From Burkholderiales bacterium (GTDB taxonomy: Bacteria > Pseudomonadota > Gammaproteobacteria > Burkholderiales > Burkholderiaceae_C), in assembly GCA_028864885.1 (NCBI GenBank), contig JAGWLR010000031.1, forward strand, positions 1-34,789: a stretch of 34,789 nt of DNA, read 5' to 3'. A program made the translations under genes and the position numbers. This document shows positions 14,976 through 21,272 of the stretch, one piece after another (positions within the stretch are counted from its first letter, which is position 1; each line of letters opens with the position of its first letter). The notes below the pieces were generated by a model that ran no database searches, was not told the DNA's origin, and worked only from the letters and a program-made list of their open reading frames with translations.

Positions 14976-16073
14976 TCAAGCCGCCTGAAGGCCACTCAGA
15001 AAGCCGGTGGCGCCCCCGTGCAGGCAACGGGGCTTGTAAGCGCTGACCCGCTTGGCAATCTCGCCAATGTGCGCAGGCGTGGTGCCGCAGCAGCCCCCGG
15101 CGATGTTCAAGAAGCCAGACTTGGCGAACTCTTCCACCAGTCCGCCCGTGATCTCCGGCGTTTCGTCAAAACCCGTGTCGCTCATGGGGTTGGGCAAGCC
15201 GGCGTTGGGGTAACAGCTGATGAAGGTGTCGCCCGCGATTTTGGACAGCTCTTCCACATAGGGGCGCATCAAGCTTGCGCCCAGCGCGCAGTTCAGGCCG
15301 ATCGCCAGCGGGTGAGCATGGCGCACCGAGTGCCAGAAGGCGCCCACGGTCTGCCCCGACAGAATGCGGCCCGAGGCATCGGTCACCGTCCCCGAAATGA
15401 TGATGGGCAAGCGCTCGCCGGTGTCCTCAAACAGCTCATCGAGCGCGAAGATCGCGGCCTTGGCGTTGAGGGTGTCGAAAATGGTTTCAACCAGGAAAAC
15501 GTCGCAGCCGCCCTCCAGCAAGCCCTTGGCCTGTTCGTAGTAAGCCTGGCGCAGCGTTTCGAAGTCGATGTTGCGGGCGCCGGGGTCATTTACGTCGGGG
15601 CTGATGCTGGCCGTGCGAGGCGTCGGGCCAATTGCGCCGGCCACGAAACGGGGCTTGTCGGGGGTGCTGTACTTGTCGCAGCACTCGCGCGCCAGGCGGG
15701 CGCCGGCCACGTTCATTTCATAGGCCAGCTCTGGCAGGTCGTAGTCTTCCTGCGCCACCGTCGTCGCACCGAAGGTGTTGGTTTCGATCAGGTCGGCCCC
15801 TGCCGCCAGATACTGTTCGTGGATCTCGCGGATGACTTGGGGCTTGGTCAGCTGCAGCAACTCGTTGTTGCCCTTCAGATCCTTGGGGTGGTCGGCAAAC
15901 CGCGTGCCCCGGTAATCGGCCTCGGTCAGCTTGTAGCGCTGGATCATCGTGCCCATGGCGCCATCGAGCACCACAATGCGCTGGCGCATGATCTCGGGCA
16001 GCTGGGCTGCGCGGGTGTACGGGCGGCGCTCCACGGGCGGGAGGACAGAAGCGGGGGCGGCGGTGGTGTTCAT
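14976..16073 (-). CDS. metH: MetH N-terminal module: homocysteine S-methyltransferase domain only
   Basis: A 365-residue zinc-dependent homocysteine-binding domain equal to roughly the first 350 residues of cobalamin-dependent methionine synthase. It activates homocysteine thiolate for methyl transfer from methylcobalamin. The barrel opens with [14 protein letters not shown]; zinc ligands are C262 in GLNCALG and C328-C329 in GGCCGTTP. The folate-binding, cobalamin-binding and reactivation domains are absent: the protein stops right after the first module, and the next gene downstream is ybeY on the other strand. It is a natural stand-alone module rather than a broken gene, because it ends cleanly with an added 20-residue tail. 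A separate gene for the remaining MetH domains must be elsewhere if it acts in methionine synthesis. A sigma-70-like promoter is seen at 16117-16145. The ATG has only a weak ribosome site. Confidence 0.93.
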
Positions 16074-16152: not shown

Positions 16153-18345
16153 TCAAGGCTGAGGCCTCGGGGGCTCGTCCGGCGTGAACAGCGAATCTCT
16201 GAAATCGGGTCGGATGGCGCCCCCCTCGCCCCCCCCGTCTGCGTCGACATCATGGGGTCGGGCATCGTCGTCGCCCAACGCCCACTGCTGAAGCGTATCG
16301 GCAGCCATGGGCTTGGCATACAAAAAGCCTTGCAGCTGATCGCAGCCCAATTCACGCAAGATGTCTTGCTGTGCCTGGGTTTCCACCCCTTCGGCCACCA
16401 CCTCCAGGCCCAAGGCATGCGCGAGCTTGATCACCGCCATCACGATCGAGCGGGCATCGTCTTCCCGATCCAGATCCTGCACAAAGCTGCGGTCGATCTT
16501 GAGCTGACGCGCTGGCAGCTTGCGCAAATAGCTCAGGCTGGAGTAGCCGGTGCCAAAGTCGTCAATCGACAAAGACACGTGGATCTGTGAGAGCCGATCA
16601 AAGATTCGCAAAGAGGCTTGCGGATCTTCCATGGCGGCAGATTCGGTCACCTCGAAGGTGATCAGCTCTGGCGGCACCTCATATCGCTGCAAGGCGGCTT
16701 GCACCTGATCGGGTAGATCGGCCTGCCGCAACTGGTGCACCGACAGGTTGATGGCCACACGCATGCGCAAGCCCATCTGCATCCATTGCTGGATCTGGCG
16801 GCAGCTCTCGTCGATCACCCACTGCCCCAATCGCCCGATCAAGCCGAAGCGTTCGGCAATGGGAATGAATTCGGTGGGGCTGATGCTGCCGCGCTCGGGA
16901 TGCTGCCATCGCAACAGCGCCTCAACGCCCATGACCTGCCCGGTTCGACCATCGATCTTGGGCTGGTAATGCAGGCTCAACCCGTCGCGATCCTCCATGG
17001 CACGTCGCAGGTCGCGCTGCAGTTCAACCGAGCGCTGCACATCGTGCTCCATGCGCTCTTCGTAGAAGCAGTGCATGTTGCCGCCGGAATGCTTGGCCGC
17101 CGTCATCGCGGCATCGGCGCGGGCAATCAACTTGCCCTTCGGGCCATGATCGGGATACAGCACCGCGCCGATCGAGCACGACAGCGTCACCTCACGCCCC
17201 TCAACCTCAAATGGGCGATGCAAGGCCTCTTTCACCCGGCTGGCCACCAGGGCGGCCGACGACGCATCAGGATTGCCATTGATCAGCACCACGAACTCGT
17301 CACCGCCAATGCGGGCCACCGTGTCGCCCTTGCGGCCCACCTCTTGCAGGCGTTGCGCCACCGAACGCAGCAGGTTGTCGCCAAAGTGATGGCCGAAGGA
17401 GTCGTTGATGGGTTTGAAGCCATCGAGGTCGATGTAGAGCAAGGCGATGCGTCGGTGGTGCTCTTCGGCGCGGTGAATGGCACGGGTCAGGTGGTCTTCC
17501 AGCACCAGACGGTTGGCCAGCCCGGTCAAGCCATCCACTTGCGCCACCCGTTGCAGTTGGGCGTCGGCACGTTGCAGGGATTGGCTCAGGTGAGCGGCAC
17601 GCTTTTGGTGGCGGGCATCCAGCCGCGAGGTCACCCAGGTGCTGGTCAACACCAAGACCGACGCCAGGGCAATCAGCACCGTCAGTGAGTGCCCCCCTAA
17701 ACCGTCCAGGGACAGGCACACCGTGCCGGCCGGATAGCTGATCGCCTTCATCCCCGCAAAGTGCATGGCAAACAGCACCAGCCCCAGCAAAACAGAGGCC
17801 CCTGCCTGGCGCCCTCCATACAAGGCGCGCCGTTCCCCCCTGAACCACGGCGTGACCAAAAAGGTCAACAAGCCCGTGGCGTACGCCAGGCCGACTGACG
17901 CCGCCACCCACGGCCACTGCCAGGTGATGCCGGGCGACACCTTGAGCGCCATCATCCCGGCGTAATGCATCGCCAGCAGGCCCGCAGCCATCCCGGGTGC
18001 CGGGATCAACCACGCGCGCCGCAACCACGCATCCTGCTTGGACACCCACAAGGCCCAACTGCCGGAGGCAATCGCCAACACAAAGGACAGGCCGGACCAC
18101 AACCCGTCATACGCGACGGCAAACGGCCATTCATGCGCCACCATGCCCTCGAAGTGCATGGACCAGATGCCCAGCCCCATGATGAAGCCGCCGCCCACCA
18201 TCCAGCCGCGCGCCAGCACCGAATCGGCCGAACGCACGCGTTTGGCCATGTCCAGGGCGACATAAGCCGTGTACACCGCCAGCACCACCGACAGCACAGT
18301 GGTCACAGGGTCATAAAGGGGCGACAGAAGCGGAGTGGCGGCCAT
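16153..18345 (-). CDS. MHYT-GGDEF-EAL membrane protein for cyclic-di-GMP turnover
   Basis: A 730-residue inner-membrane signalling protein. The N-terminal seven-helix MHYT sensor (about 15-235) has all three repeats with Met-His pairs at 63-64, 126-127 and 194-195 (MHFEGM, MHYAGM, MHFAGM), proposed to bind a metal and sense a diatomic gas or redox state. The GGDEF domain is canonical: [10 protein letters not shown], intact GGDEF at 347-351 and an inhibitory I-site RKGD at 338-341. The EAL domain is complete: E475-[22 protein letters not shown] and EGVET. It could both make and break cyclic-di-GMP. ATG at 18345 is 2 nt after the stop of the upstream paralogue, so translation is coupled; an in-frame upstream ATG at 18426 would overlap that gene by 79 nt. 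The C-terminal tail is acidic and Gly-rich. Confidence 0.93.
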
Positions 18346-18347
18346 GG

Positions 18348-20474
18348 TCAGGCCACCACCGAAGGCGAGGAGATGTCTTCCGCATTGGCCGCCACAGTGG
18401 GCAGTGAGGCCCGCTGCGCCAACCATCCTTGCAAGGCACTGTCAGGCATGGGTTTGGCATACAAGAAGCCTTGCAACTCGTCACAGGCAAAGCGGATCAG
18501 GATGTCGGCCTGCGGCTGCGTTTCCACCCCTTCGGCCACCACTTTCAGGCCCAAGGCGTGCGACAGACGCACGACGGCTTCGACGATGGCTTGGGCATCG
18601 GGGCTGCTATCCAGGTCCCGCACAAAGGCACGGTCGATCTTCAGCTGCTTGGCCGGCAGGCGCCTGAGGTAACTGAGGCTGGAATACCCGGTTCCAAAAT
18701 CGTCGATCGACAACTGCACGCCGATGTCGGCCAGCATGTCGAACACCCGAATCGAGGCGTCAATGTCGTCCATCGCGGTCGACTCGGTGATCTCCAGAAT
18801 CAGCATGCGCGGGGGCACGTTGTTGCGCACCAATGCGTCTCGCACCCGCTGCGGCAGATCGGGTTGACGCAATTGATGCGCCGAAATGTTCACCGCCACC
18901 GGGATATCCTGGCCAGCATCCATCCAGCCCCGCACATGACGGCAGGCTTCCTCCAGGACCCAAAGCCCCAGCTCGCCGATCAGGCCAAAGCGCTCGGCCA
19001 CCGGAATGAAAGCCGCCGGGCTCACTGAGCCACGCTGTGGATGCGTCCAACGCAGCAAGGCCTCCACGCCCGCCAGCTCGCCACTCGGTCGCAGCTTGGG
19101 CTGGAAATGCAGCATCAGCTCGCCACGCTCGATGGCATGGCGCAGGTCTCGCTGCATGTCGACCTGTTCTGCCCCCCGCCGATCCATGCCGCGCTCAAAG
19201 AAGCAATACACCGCGCCGCCTGCATTGCGGGCGGTTTGCATGGCGTCCATCGAATGCGCGAGCAGTTGGGCGGCATTCGTGCTTTCAGGGTACTGCGCGA
19301 TGCCGATTGAACACGTCAGGCTGATGTCCACCTCGTCGATCATGCAGGGCTCGCGCAAGGCCTCTGACAAACGCTGGGCCAGTTGCGAGGCCACATGCGG
19401 ATCCCCCAGGCCCACGCACAAGAGCAAGAACTCATCGTTGTCAGAACGAGCCAGTACATCGTGATCGCGCACCAGCCCAAGCAGCCGCGCAGACAGGTGC
19501 CGGATGGAGTTGTCGCCCAAGGTGTGGCCATAGGTGTCGACAAAAGCGCGAAACCCGTCCAGGCTGATGCGCAACACGGTGGCGCGTTCGGGAGCCGGCG
19601 CCGTTTGGTTGAGCACCCGTTTGAGCTGCTCTTCAAAACCCAGGCGGTTGAGTAACCCGGTGTGAGCATCGCGAAAGCTCGCTGCCACCAGATCGGTTTG
19701 GGCCTTTTTGAGCGACTGAACCAGTTGCTCCTGCCGGCTGCGCGAGCGAGCATCCAGCAGGGTGCCCATGTGAACCAGCACAAATAGCATCAACACCGTT
19801 GCCGACAAGATCCAGCCCAGCGCATCGCCCGACAATTGATCAACGCTCAGGCACACGGTCCCCGGCGCCAGGGTGACAGCAGCCACCAAGGCCGACTGGC
19901 CCAACCGTAACAACGTGCCCACCGACACGGCCAGCAACAGGGTTCGCACCTCGCTGACTTCGTTGCGCAGCAACTCGCGTCGAATCAAAATCGAGCCGGC
20001 GGCGCAGCCCGCCAGAATCAGGCTGAGGCCGGTGATGACCCTAGCGGTATCCCATGCAACATGCGGGCGCAGCACCATGGCAGCCACGTCGACCACCACC
20101 AGCAGGCCCAGGCCCAGGCCAAACACCCCGCCGCCTGTGACGCGTTGCAGCCACTTCAGGCCGGGTTGGCAAAACATCCAAATGACAGCCGCGCTGATGA
20201 CCACGGCAGGTAGCCACGACGCCAACACCACCTCGGGCACATAGCCCACCTTGATCGGCCAATGCACTGCTGCCAGCCCCAGAAAGGTCTGCGCCCAGAT
20301 CCCGGTGCCGATGCACAACGCGCCGCCCAACCACCAGCCCGACCCCACATCCCGTTCACTGACACGGATGCGACGGATCACCTGGACCAGCAGATAAATG
20401 CCGTAGATGGCCACCACCCAGGAAGCGGCCAAGGCCGTCCAGCGAAACTGGACTGGCAAGAATTCGTCCGTCAT
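18348..20474 (-). CDS. Degenerate MHYT / inactive GGDEF / EAL membrane protein
   Basis: A 708-residue paralogue of the downstream gene. The membrane domain (about 10-240) aligns along its length, including the shared PGTVCLS segment, but all three metal-site Met-His pairs are replaced (Gln-Thr near 62-63, Val-Asp near 129-130, Gly-Gln near 192-193). The GGDEF domain has lost catalysis: the signature is DNDEF at 345-349, DLDGFK is SLDGFR, and IND is FVD. The I-site RDHD (336-339) remains. The EAL domain is complete: E471-[22 protein letters not shown] and EGVET. It is predicted to be a phosphodiesterase regulated through a non-enzymatic GGDEF domain. The start at 20474 is preferred over the ATG at 20480 because GAGGAA then sits 6 nt upstream. 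It is first of a coupled two-gene unit. Confidence 0.9.
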
Positions 20475-20544
20475 GCGCATTTCCTCACACGCCCCGAGAC
20501 CAACTTCTCTCGTTCTTCGGGTTTCGGCGGGAACGGCGCCAGAT

Positions 20545-20577: not shown

Positions 20578-20859
20578 TCAATGCATCACAACTGGTTGCA
20601 AAGCCATCCCCGCATAGCTCTCCAGATAGGCGTCGAATTCTTCAACGCTGGGTGAGGTTTCGATCAAGGCTTCGACGCCTTGCTTGAACGATTCGGCCAA
20701 CGCGCCTTCGATGAAAAACTCCTTGCGCGCGAATTTATCGACGATTTCATAGCCACCACGTGTCAATGGCGAGGGCGATGCATGTGACACGGCCGCCTGC
20801 ACGGGCGGCATCTCAATCTGAACGACCGCGAAGTTGTCAGAGTTGTAAAGCATGTGCAT
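20578..20859 (-). CDS. DUF3567 family protein
   Basis: A 93-residue cytoplasmic protein of a small family that I know only from Burkholderiales and relatives. The signature MxMLYNSDNFAVV at the start and TRGGYEIVDKFARKEFFIEG in the middle, followed by a helical SFKQGVEALIETSPSVEEFD segment, are typical. Function is unknown. The length is normal for the family. AGGAG lies 8 nt before the ATG at 20859, which supports this start over the Met at residue 3. It is preceded by a 440-bp gap and has no operon partner visible on either side. The gene is a useful taxonomic marker here. Confidence 0.88.
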   Translation of the reverse strand: MHMLYNSDNFAVVQIEMPPVQAAVSHASPSPLTRGGYEIVDKFARKEFFIEGALAESFKQGVEALIETSPSVEEFDAYLESYAGMALQPVVMH

Positions 20860-21241: not shown

Positions 21242-21272
21242 GCCCGACTGAACCCCAGTCGGGCTTTTTTTT
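21242..21272 (+). terminator. Intrinsic terminator with no upstream protein gene
   Basis: Perfect 8-bp stem GCCCGACT (21242-21249) and AGTCGGGC (21257-21264), 7-nt loop, then eight T (21265-21272). The T run is on the plus strand only, whereas both flanking genes are on the minus strand. It therefore points to a plus-strand transcript arising within the gap. Confidence 0.88.

Follow-up and report, generated by a model that had tools for sequence, protein, structure and literature searches.

Adjacent MHYT-GGDEF-EAL genes in a Burkholderiales genome, one without Met-His pairs, as putative tandem duplicates with divided labour

MucR and NbdA of Pseudomonas aeruginosa join an MHYT membrane domain to GGDEF and EAL domains, and the same order occurs in two adjoining minus-strand genes of a 34,789-nucleotide stretch of DNA from a Burkholderiales bacterium (GenBank contig JAGWLR010000031.1; the whole stretch is called the window here). 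By open reading frame (ORF), Pfam and alignment, P1 (16153..18345, 730 residues) is an MHYT-GGDEF-EAL protein with intact motifs; P2 (18348..20480, 710 residues), identified in the same way and sharing the order by homology, differs from MucR and NbdA in lacking any Met-His pair, in joining a degenerate GGDEF domain to an intact EAL domain and in adjoining a paralogue. Neither MucR nor NbdA is known to belong to such a pair. Neighbouring cyclase and phosphodiesterase genes are familiar from the DosC-DosP operon, and LapD is a GGDEF-EAL protein whose degenerate domain has been retained for regulation; the sensors of these systems are haem globin or PAS domains or are periplasmic, and the proteins are not known to be duplicates of one MHYT gene. 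The sensor domain of P1 is shared with CoxC of Afipia carboxidovorans, an MHYT-LytTR protein that requires copper for its response to CO according to excerpts of the published account (PMC11347149), and whose output is DNA-binding rather than GGDEF-EAL. CdgB of Azospirillum baldaniorum (MHYT-PAS-GGDEF-EAL) provides, in excerpts of PMC9683572, a precedent for a dual-function GGDEF-EAL protein that bears an MHYT domain in the membrane; it carries a PAS domain, unlike P1 and P2, and is not described in those excerpts as part of a degenerate pair. Among the titles and abstract openings listed by the literature searches, none concerned a degenerate MHYT copy or a pair like this one.

We interpret P1 and P2 as tandem duplicates with divided labour, in which P2 is a metal-blind putative phosphodiesterase and its partner alone keeps the cyclase residues, and we place the probability of this reading at roughly 0.7. 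The residue losses, their conservation, the synteny and the close gene spacing on which it draws are features of the sequences themselves.

Met-His sites, fold and catalytic residues

The two genes are separated by 2 nt (18346..18347, from the P2 stop to the P1 start) and their products are 43% identical over 674 aligned columns, in agreement with the spacing and the common membrane domain described by the initial annotation. The existence of two adjoining genes was likewise borne out, and the pair start it had given, 20474, proved to be the second ATG of P2, whose ORF begins at 20480. GGDEF and EAL domains are matched by Pfam in both proteins. The MHYT profile (PF03707, curated cut-off 21 bits) scores 92.2 bits over three stretches of P1 and 36.0 bits over one stretch of P2, and all four MHYT matches in the window's genome assembly lie inside these two genes.

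P1 presents its three sites as MHFEGM (residues 63-68, 18142..18159), MHYAGM (residues 126-131, 17953..17970) and MHFAGM (residues 194-199, 17749..17766), all on the minus strand, as is every feature of the pair, and so has the three motifs that define MHYT proteins, with Phe taking the place of Tyr at sites 1 and 3, as it usually does at site 1 in the aligned relatives. At the corresponding positions P2 reads Gln64-Thr65 (20286..20291), Leu127-Val128 (20097..20102, by multiple alignment; the pairwise register lies one residue further on) and Gly194-Gln195 (19896..19901, within GQSALV). The replacements first proposed thus stand for Gln-Thr and Gly-Gln, whereas Val-Asp depends on the register, site 2 being Leu-Val in the multiple alignment and Val-Val followed by Asp in the pairwise one, and Met or His in neither.

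The loss of all three pairs extends well beyond the window. None of the 32 P2 proteins with a visible membrane domain (one per genome, window included) keeps a Met-His pair at any site, as against three retained His in all 69 intact relatives (62 outside homologues, five other P1 of the genus, the window P1 and a further protein from genome G059). Because it has no Met-His pair, P2 is to be regarded as MHYT-derived and, by motif, not as an MHYT sensor; chance loss in a single strain is ruled out by the same 32 genomes. The first-position Met is absent from every P2 at each site and present in 63, 69 and 64 of the intact relatives at sites 1-3. His occurs in one P2 at each site, always that of genome G012 (L087:5958-8099), which keeps three His without Met (EH, TH, FH) and lies on the basal P2 branch of the catalytic-part tree. 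Since His is never replaced and Met sometimes is in the intact set, this basal protein looks, from its sequence, like an intermediate in metal-site loss in which Met went first.

Some residues are conserved in P2 alone. Pro91 is found in 32/32 P2 and in none of the 69 intact relatives, Trp21 in 29/32 and again in none, and Arg113 in 31/32, a position that is Leu in 55 of the intact set; Ala63 is no such signature, as Ala occurs in 22/69 intact relatives. The Cys of the PGTVCLS segment is kept in all 69 intact relatives and in 27 of the 32 P2, where it corresponds to Cys210, and the MHYT profile still recognizes 21 of 23 P2 membrane domains at E<=0.01. This Cys, together with the Gln or Glu that occupies the site-1 Met position in 19/32 P2, among other residues, could in principle provide an alternative metal site, but the His is gone from each site in 31/32 proteins, the second Met of motifs 2 and 3 (residues 131 and 199 of P1) is lost in 32/32, and the membrane domain of the window P2 holds three His in total, none at a site. 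We consider continued metal binding by P2 through such residues very improbable.

The fold itself appears to have been kept. In AlphaFold2 models both proteins show seven long helices at matching positions within the first ~268 residues (mean predicted local distance difference test score 87.8 for P2 and 85.0 for P1; predicted template modelling score 0.60 and 0.50), the two models not being independent because the P1 alignment included seven P2 rows. The seven-helix domain of P2 spans residues 1-255 (19716..20480) by this model and the single Pfam MHYT stretch, its last long helix running on to about residue 268, and the modelling supports retention of the MHYT fold in P2. A search of the P2 membrane profile against the Protein Data Bank (PDB) for a solved MHYT structure returned only two chance-level matches (E 0.75 and 0.81), both to a ketothiolase; the best 60 of 90 PDB sequence matches of P1 cover the catalytic part only, and among the 50 fold matches listed all were GGDEF/EAL proteins, with no MHYT domain. 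Among the 15 closest P2 pairs the ratio of nonsynonymous to synonymous substitution rates (omega) of the membrane domain is 0.11-0.34, compared with 0.11-0.18 among intact proteins (the three closest pairs). Together with the residues conserved only in P2, these values support the earlier idea of a differently tuned copy in the sense that the copy is maintained. The low omega in close pairs and 31 full-length open frames (window included) rule out a pseudogene or sequencing error.

A second loss had gone unmentioned. The GGDEF active site of P2 is also degenerate, its motif reading RSDNDEF (residues 345-351, 19428..19448) where P1 has an intact RIGGDEF (residues 345-351, 17293..17313) with the I-site RKGD directly upstream, while the EAL residues of P2 are complete. 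All 31 full-length P2 have lost the GGDEF metal Asp and 30 of them the guanine Asn, and all 31 retain the RxxD motif and every EAL residue scored (E, N, E, E, D, D, K, E, Q). The window P1 has both the metal Asp and the guanine Asn, and the scored EAL (PF00563) positions are intact in both window proteins; the roles of these GGDEF residues and the identity of the catalytic EAL residues are general knowledge of the two families. By its residues P1 qualifies as a diguanylate cyclase (PF00990) and P2 does not, and because the GGDEF site is lost and the EAL residues are complete, P2 looks like a pure phosphodiesterase.

Neighbours of P2 across the genus

The surveyed genus is identified as Aquabacterium from the identity of one congener's 11,076-base stretch to an Aquabacterium sp. 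sequence. Each species is represented by a single genome, in several cases a draft, and near-identical rows occur among the P2, for which reason the counts do not stand for independent events. P2 is present in 33 of 42 genomes, window included, and the window alone combines it with an intact MHYT-bearing P1 (1/33). In 25 of the 33 its neighbour is instead a short GGDEF-EAL protein without the seven-helix domain (genomes G001-005, 007-009, 011, 013, 014, 016, 017, 019, 022, 023, 026, 028, 031, 033, 034 and 062-065), the absence of the domain resting on homology searches and spacing in G062-065. In one genome (G024) the neighbour is a transmembrane EAL protein (L088:8324-9376; 350 residues, one hydrophobic stretch, altered motifs in the EAL part, SLDDGQSP among them), and in six (G006, 012, 018, 027, 032 and 035) no such neighbour is present. 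Conversely, an intact P1 without P2 occurs in five genomes (G010, 015, 021, 025 and 030) and a short P1 without P2 in two (G029 and G036). The other two of the 42, assigned to no group, are G020, which has no anchor, and G061, whose contig ends after the DUF3567 gene. The G014 pair lies across two contigs, the G027 P2 is present as a tail where its contig stops, and contig ends also truncate the G030 P1 and the G014 P2. G025 has another copy of the locus (L094), a broken one that runs through N into unrelated sequence and looks like an assembly artefact.

The initial annotation had pictured a heteromeric sensor, with one subunit binding the metal and the other regulatory. As a general unit this arrangement did not hold up, the degenerate copy being widespread without an intact neighbour, an outcome that the initial annotation had itself named as refuting; this indicates that a metal-binding subunit is not a general requirement for P2. 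In its strict form, an obligate heteromer in which intact P1 binds metal, P2 regulates and neither works alone, the proposal gains from the 2-nt spacing in the window, from similarly tight spacing in congeners and from the 43% identity over nearly the whole length, which makes a shared P1-P2 dimer interface plausible, but the single intact neighbour among 33 loci and the six P2 without such a neighbour speak against it, as do 15 of 28 P2 genomes with no MHYT match besides P2 (a count that omits G027, with its P2 tail only, and a search that missed P2 itself in G018 and G022). We regard it as unlikely, although a heteromer may still form in the window's own species.

Coupled synthesis, which had been proposed from the spacing, received support from the congeners: 21 of the 22 adjacent pairs measured lie within 14 nt either way, ten of them overlapping by 4 nt, and the remaining pair, 113 nt apart, has a doubtful start, these spacings depending on homologue start codons picked by eye. 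A different arrangement, in which P2 is the sole membrane sensor, docks a sensor-less P1 through GGDEF-EAL dimer surfaces and controls both enzymes, with the window P1 keeping the old sensor, is consistent with this tight spacing and with the 25 loci at which the neighbour has lost its seven-helix domain. Eight of these 25 short proteins, and that of G036, were searched with Pfam, and none of the nine gave an MHYT match at E<=0.01. The short partners are, moreover, not one clade: a single loss of the sensor domain, with 23 short P1 grouped together, is rejected (approximately unbiased (AU) test, p 0.0026), indicating that the domain was lost more than once, or was regained in the window's lineage. 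Set against control of this kind are the short P1 without P2 in G029 and G036 and the six P2 without such a neighbour, and we rate it as an alternative less likely than not.

Probable origin of the pair and points against divided labour

Within the genus the locus has a conserved order, DUF3567 - pair - metH N-part, which in the window comprises the upstream DUF3567 gene (20578..20859, minus strand) and the downstream MetH N-terminal (homocysteine S-methyltransferase) gene (14976..16073, minus strand). Four outside genomes (G130, G082, G142 and G246) have at the same locus DUF3567, a long ORF, a single MHYT-type gene and metH; the long ORF of G130, the one tested, encodes AAA ATPase domains, and within the genus G010 likewise carries a long ORF at this place. 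In the catalytic-part tree P2 forms one clade (support 99/99) and the P1 and P2 of the genus together form another (96/87). The window P1 pairs with that of G030 (100/100), shares a clade with 18 short partners (99/99), to which it is sister at 88/70; for the catalytic part, grouping it instead with the other MHYT-bearing P1 of the genus is rejected (AU p 3.8e-7). The trees omit the G024 neighbour, the catalytic and membrane trees also omit P2 of G014 and the P1 of G059, and 13 of 63 outside rows are included. This evidence gives good support to a reconstructed history of tandem duplication close to the base of the genus and subsequent metal-site loss in P2.

No P2 turned up outside the genus in the sequences searched: 62 of 63 aligned outside homologues, from 60 regions picked by score and frame length out of a longer hit list, keep three His, as do 28 of 28 aligned loci in an order-wide search of 399 genomes (several of them in the earlier set and one being the window P1). 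A contig scan with two EAL-part peptides gave listed matches that were mostly other GGDEF-EAL proteins, of which only L198 was used. In G082, from another genus with the same DUF3567-metH locus, the MHYT-type ORF (L195, frame +5100) reads Asp/His/Ile at the His positions and has an intact GGDEF motif. The membrane tree places it with P2 (97/96, a grouping flagged as a meeting of long branches), the catalytic tree with G130 (98/91), and we read this conflict as possible independent loss, a suggestion drawn from sequence comparison. In other genera there are MHYT-GGDEF-EAL tandems whose two copies are both intact (L143 of G098, L184 of G133 and L188 of G238).

Several observations weigh against a maintained pair with divided tasks. 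In each of the 15 closest pairs P2 has a higher omega in the membrane domain than in the catalytic part (0.04-0.25), which makes some relaxation likely, and among the divergent P2 pairs listed the same simple method gives membrane values from 0.4 to above 1 (1.27 for G023-G012), probably due to saturated synonymous sites. The RxGGDEF motif of P1 is altered in 18 of 23 short partners (those of G062-G065 and the EAL-only protein of G024 left out), so the description of P1 as a cyclase is safest where it is intact, as in the window; the metal Asp, kept in 23/23 of these partners, and the Asn, kept in 22/23, speak for the reading. RxxD is likewise kept in every P1 and outside row scored, and P2 may thus have retained it for structural reasons. 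The six P2 without such a neighbour and the P1-type genes without P2 in 7/42 genomes show the pair to be separable. In the catalytic tree, the P1 side of the split is only moderately supported (94/70), the same-locus outgroup genes of G130 and G082 adjoin the genus clade at only 93/70, those of G142 and G246 are placed elsewhere, and the P2 of G012 and G024 sit on long branches.

The faster evolution of the membrane domain, the loss of ligands from a fold that is kept and the high omega of divergent pairs would also suit a membrane domain in decay, a dead sensor serving as a mere anchor for the phosphodiesterase. The omega of the closest pairs, the residues conserved only in P2 (P91 foremost) and the polar Gln that replaces the site-3 His in 22/32 proteins argue otherwise, and we find decay doubtful.

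Two features flank the pair in the window. The MetH gene encodes 365 residues and only the N-terminal methionine synthase part (match 8-339 of 1234), and a terminator-like hairpin with a T run lies at 21242-21264 on the plus strand, between a glutathione peroxidase-like gene and the DUF3567 gene.

Proposed working of the pair and its meaning

Under the division of labour that we favour, one MHYT-GGDEF-EAL gene at the DUF3567-metH locus would have been duplicated in tandem near the base of the genus, and the copies would have split their tasks. P2 would be a membrane-anchored phosphodiesterase of cyclic di-GMP (c-di-GMP) that has given up sensing through a Met/His metal centre, its membrane domain now acting as an anchor, a dimeriser or a sensor of another cue, and its RxxD I-site may bind c-di-GMP. 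P1, in the window's species, would retain its MHYT domain as a copper-dependent sensor of a gas (O2, CO or NO) that sets the balance of cyclase and phosphodiesterase; we assign this role by analogy, because of CoxC and MucR as described in excerpts of PMC11347149. In most congeners with P2 the sensor domain is gone from P1. The two proteins are probably co-translated and would act on one local c-di-GMP pool. The enzymatic activities, the binding of copper or gas, the shared pool and any physical contact are what we infer from the residues and their arrangement.

A more specific conjecture, which we rate as somewhat improbable, is that P2 represents a metal-free offshoot of the MHYT fold, seen in one genus and marked by W21, P91 and R113 and by polar replacements (Gln/Glu at site 1, Gln at site 3). 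Such a protein might sense a cue other than a copper-bound gas and govern two co-translated enzymes, namely its own phosphodiesterase and a partner without the former sensor; the window's species would then be an intermediate that has survived, with a partner that still responds to the original cue.

In summary, a single locus in one genus offers a natural series for the sensing residues of the MHYT domain, from intact sites (the window P1) through His without Met (G012) to none (the other P2) and loss of the whole domain (the short P1). The series suggests that the fold of seven helices can outlast the metal ligands, and as the fold is kept where the ligands are lost, its role may extend past the metal site. 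A Pfam match to MHYT does not, by itself, imply a metal or gas sensor.

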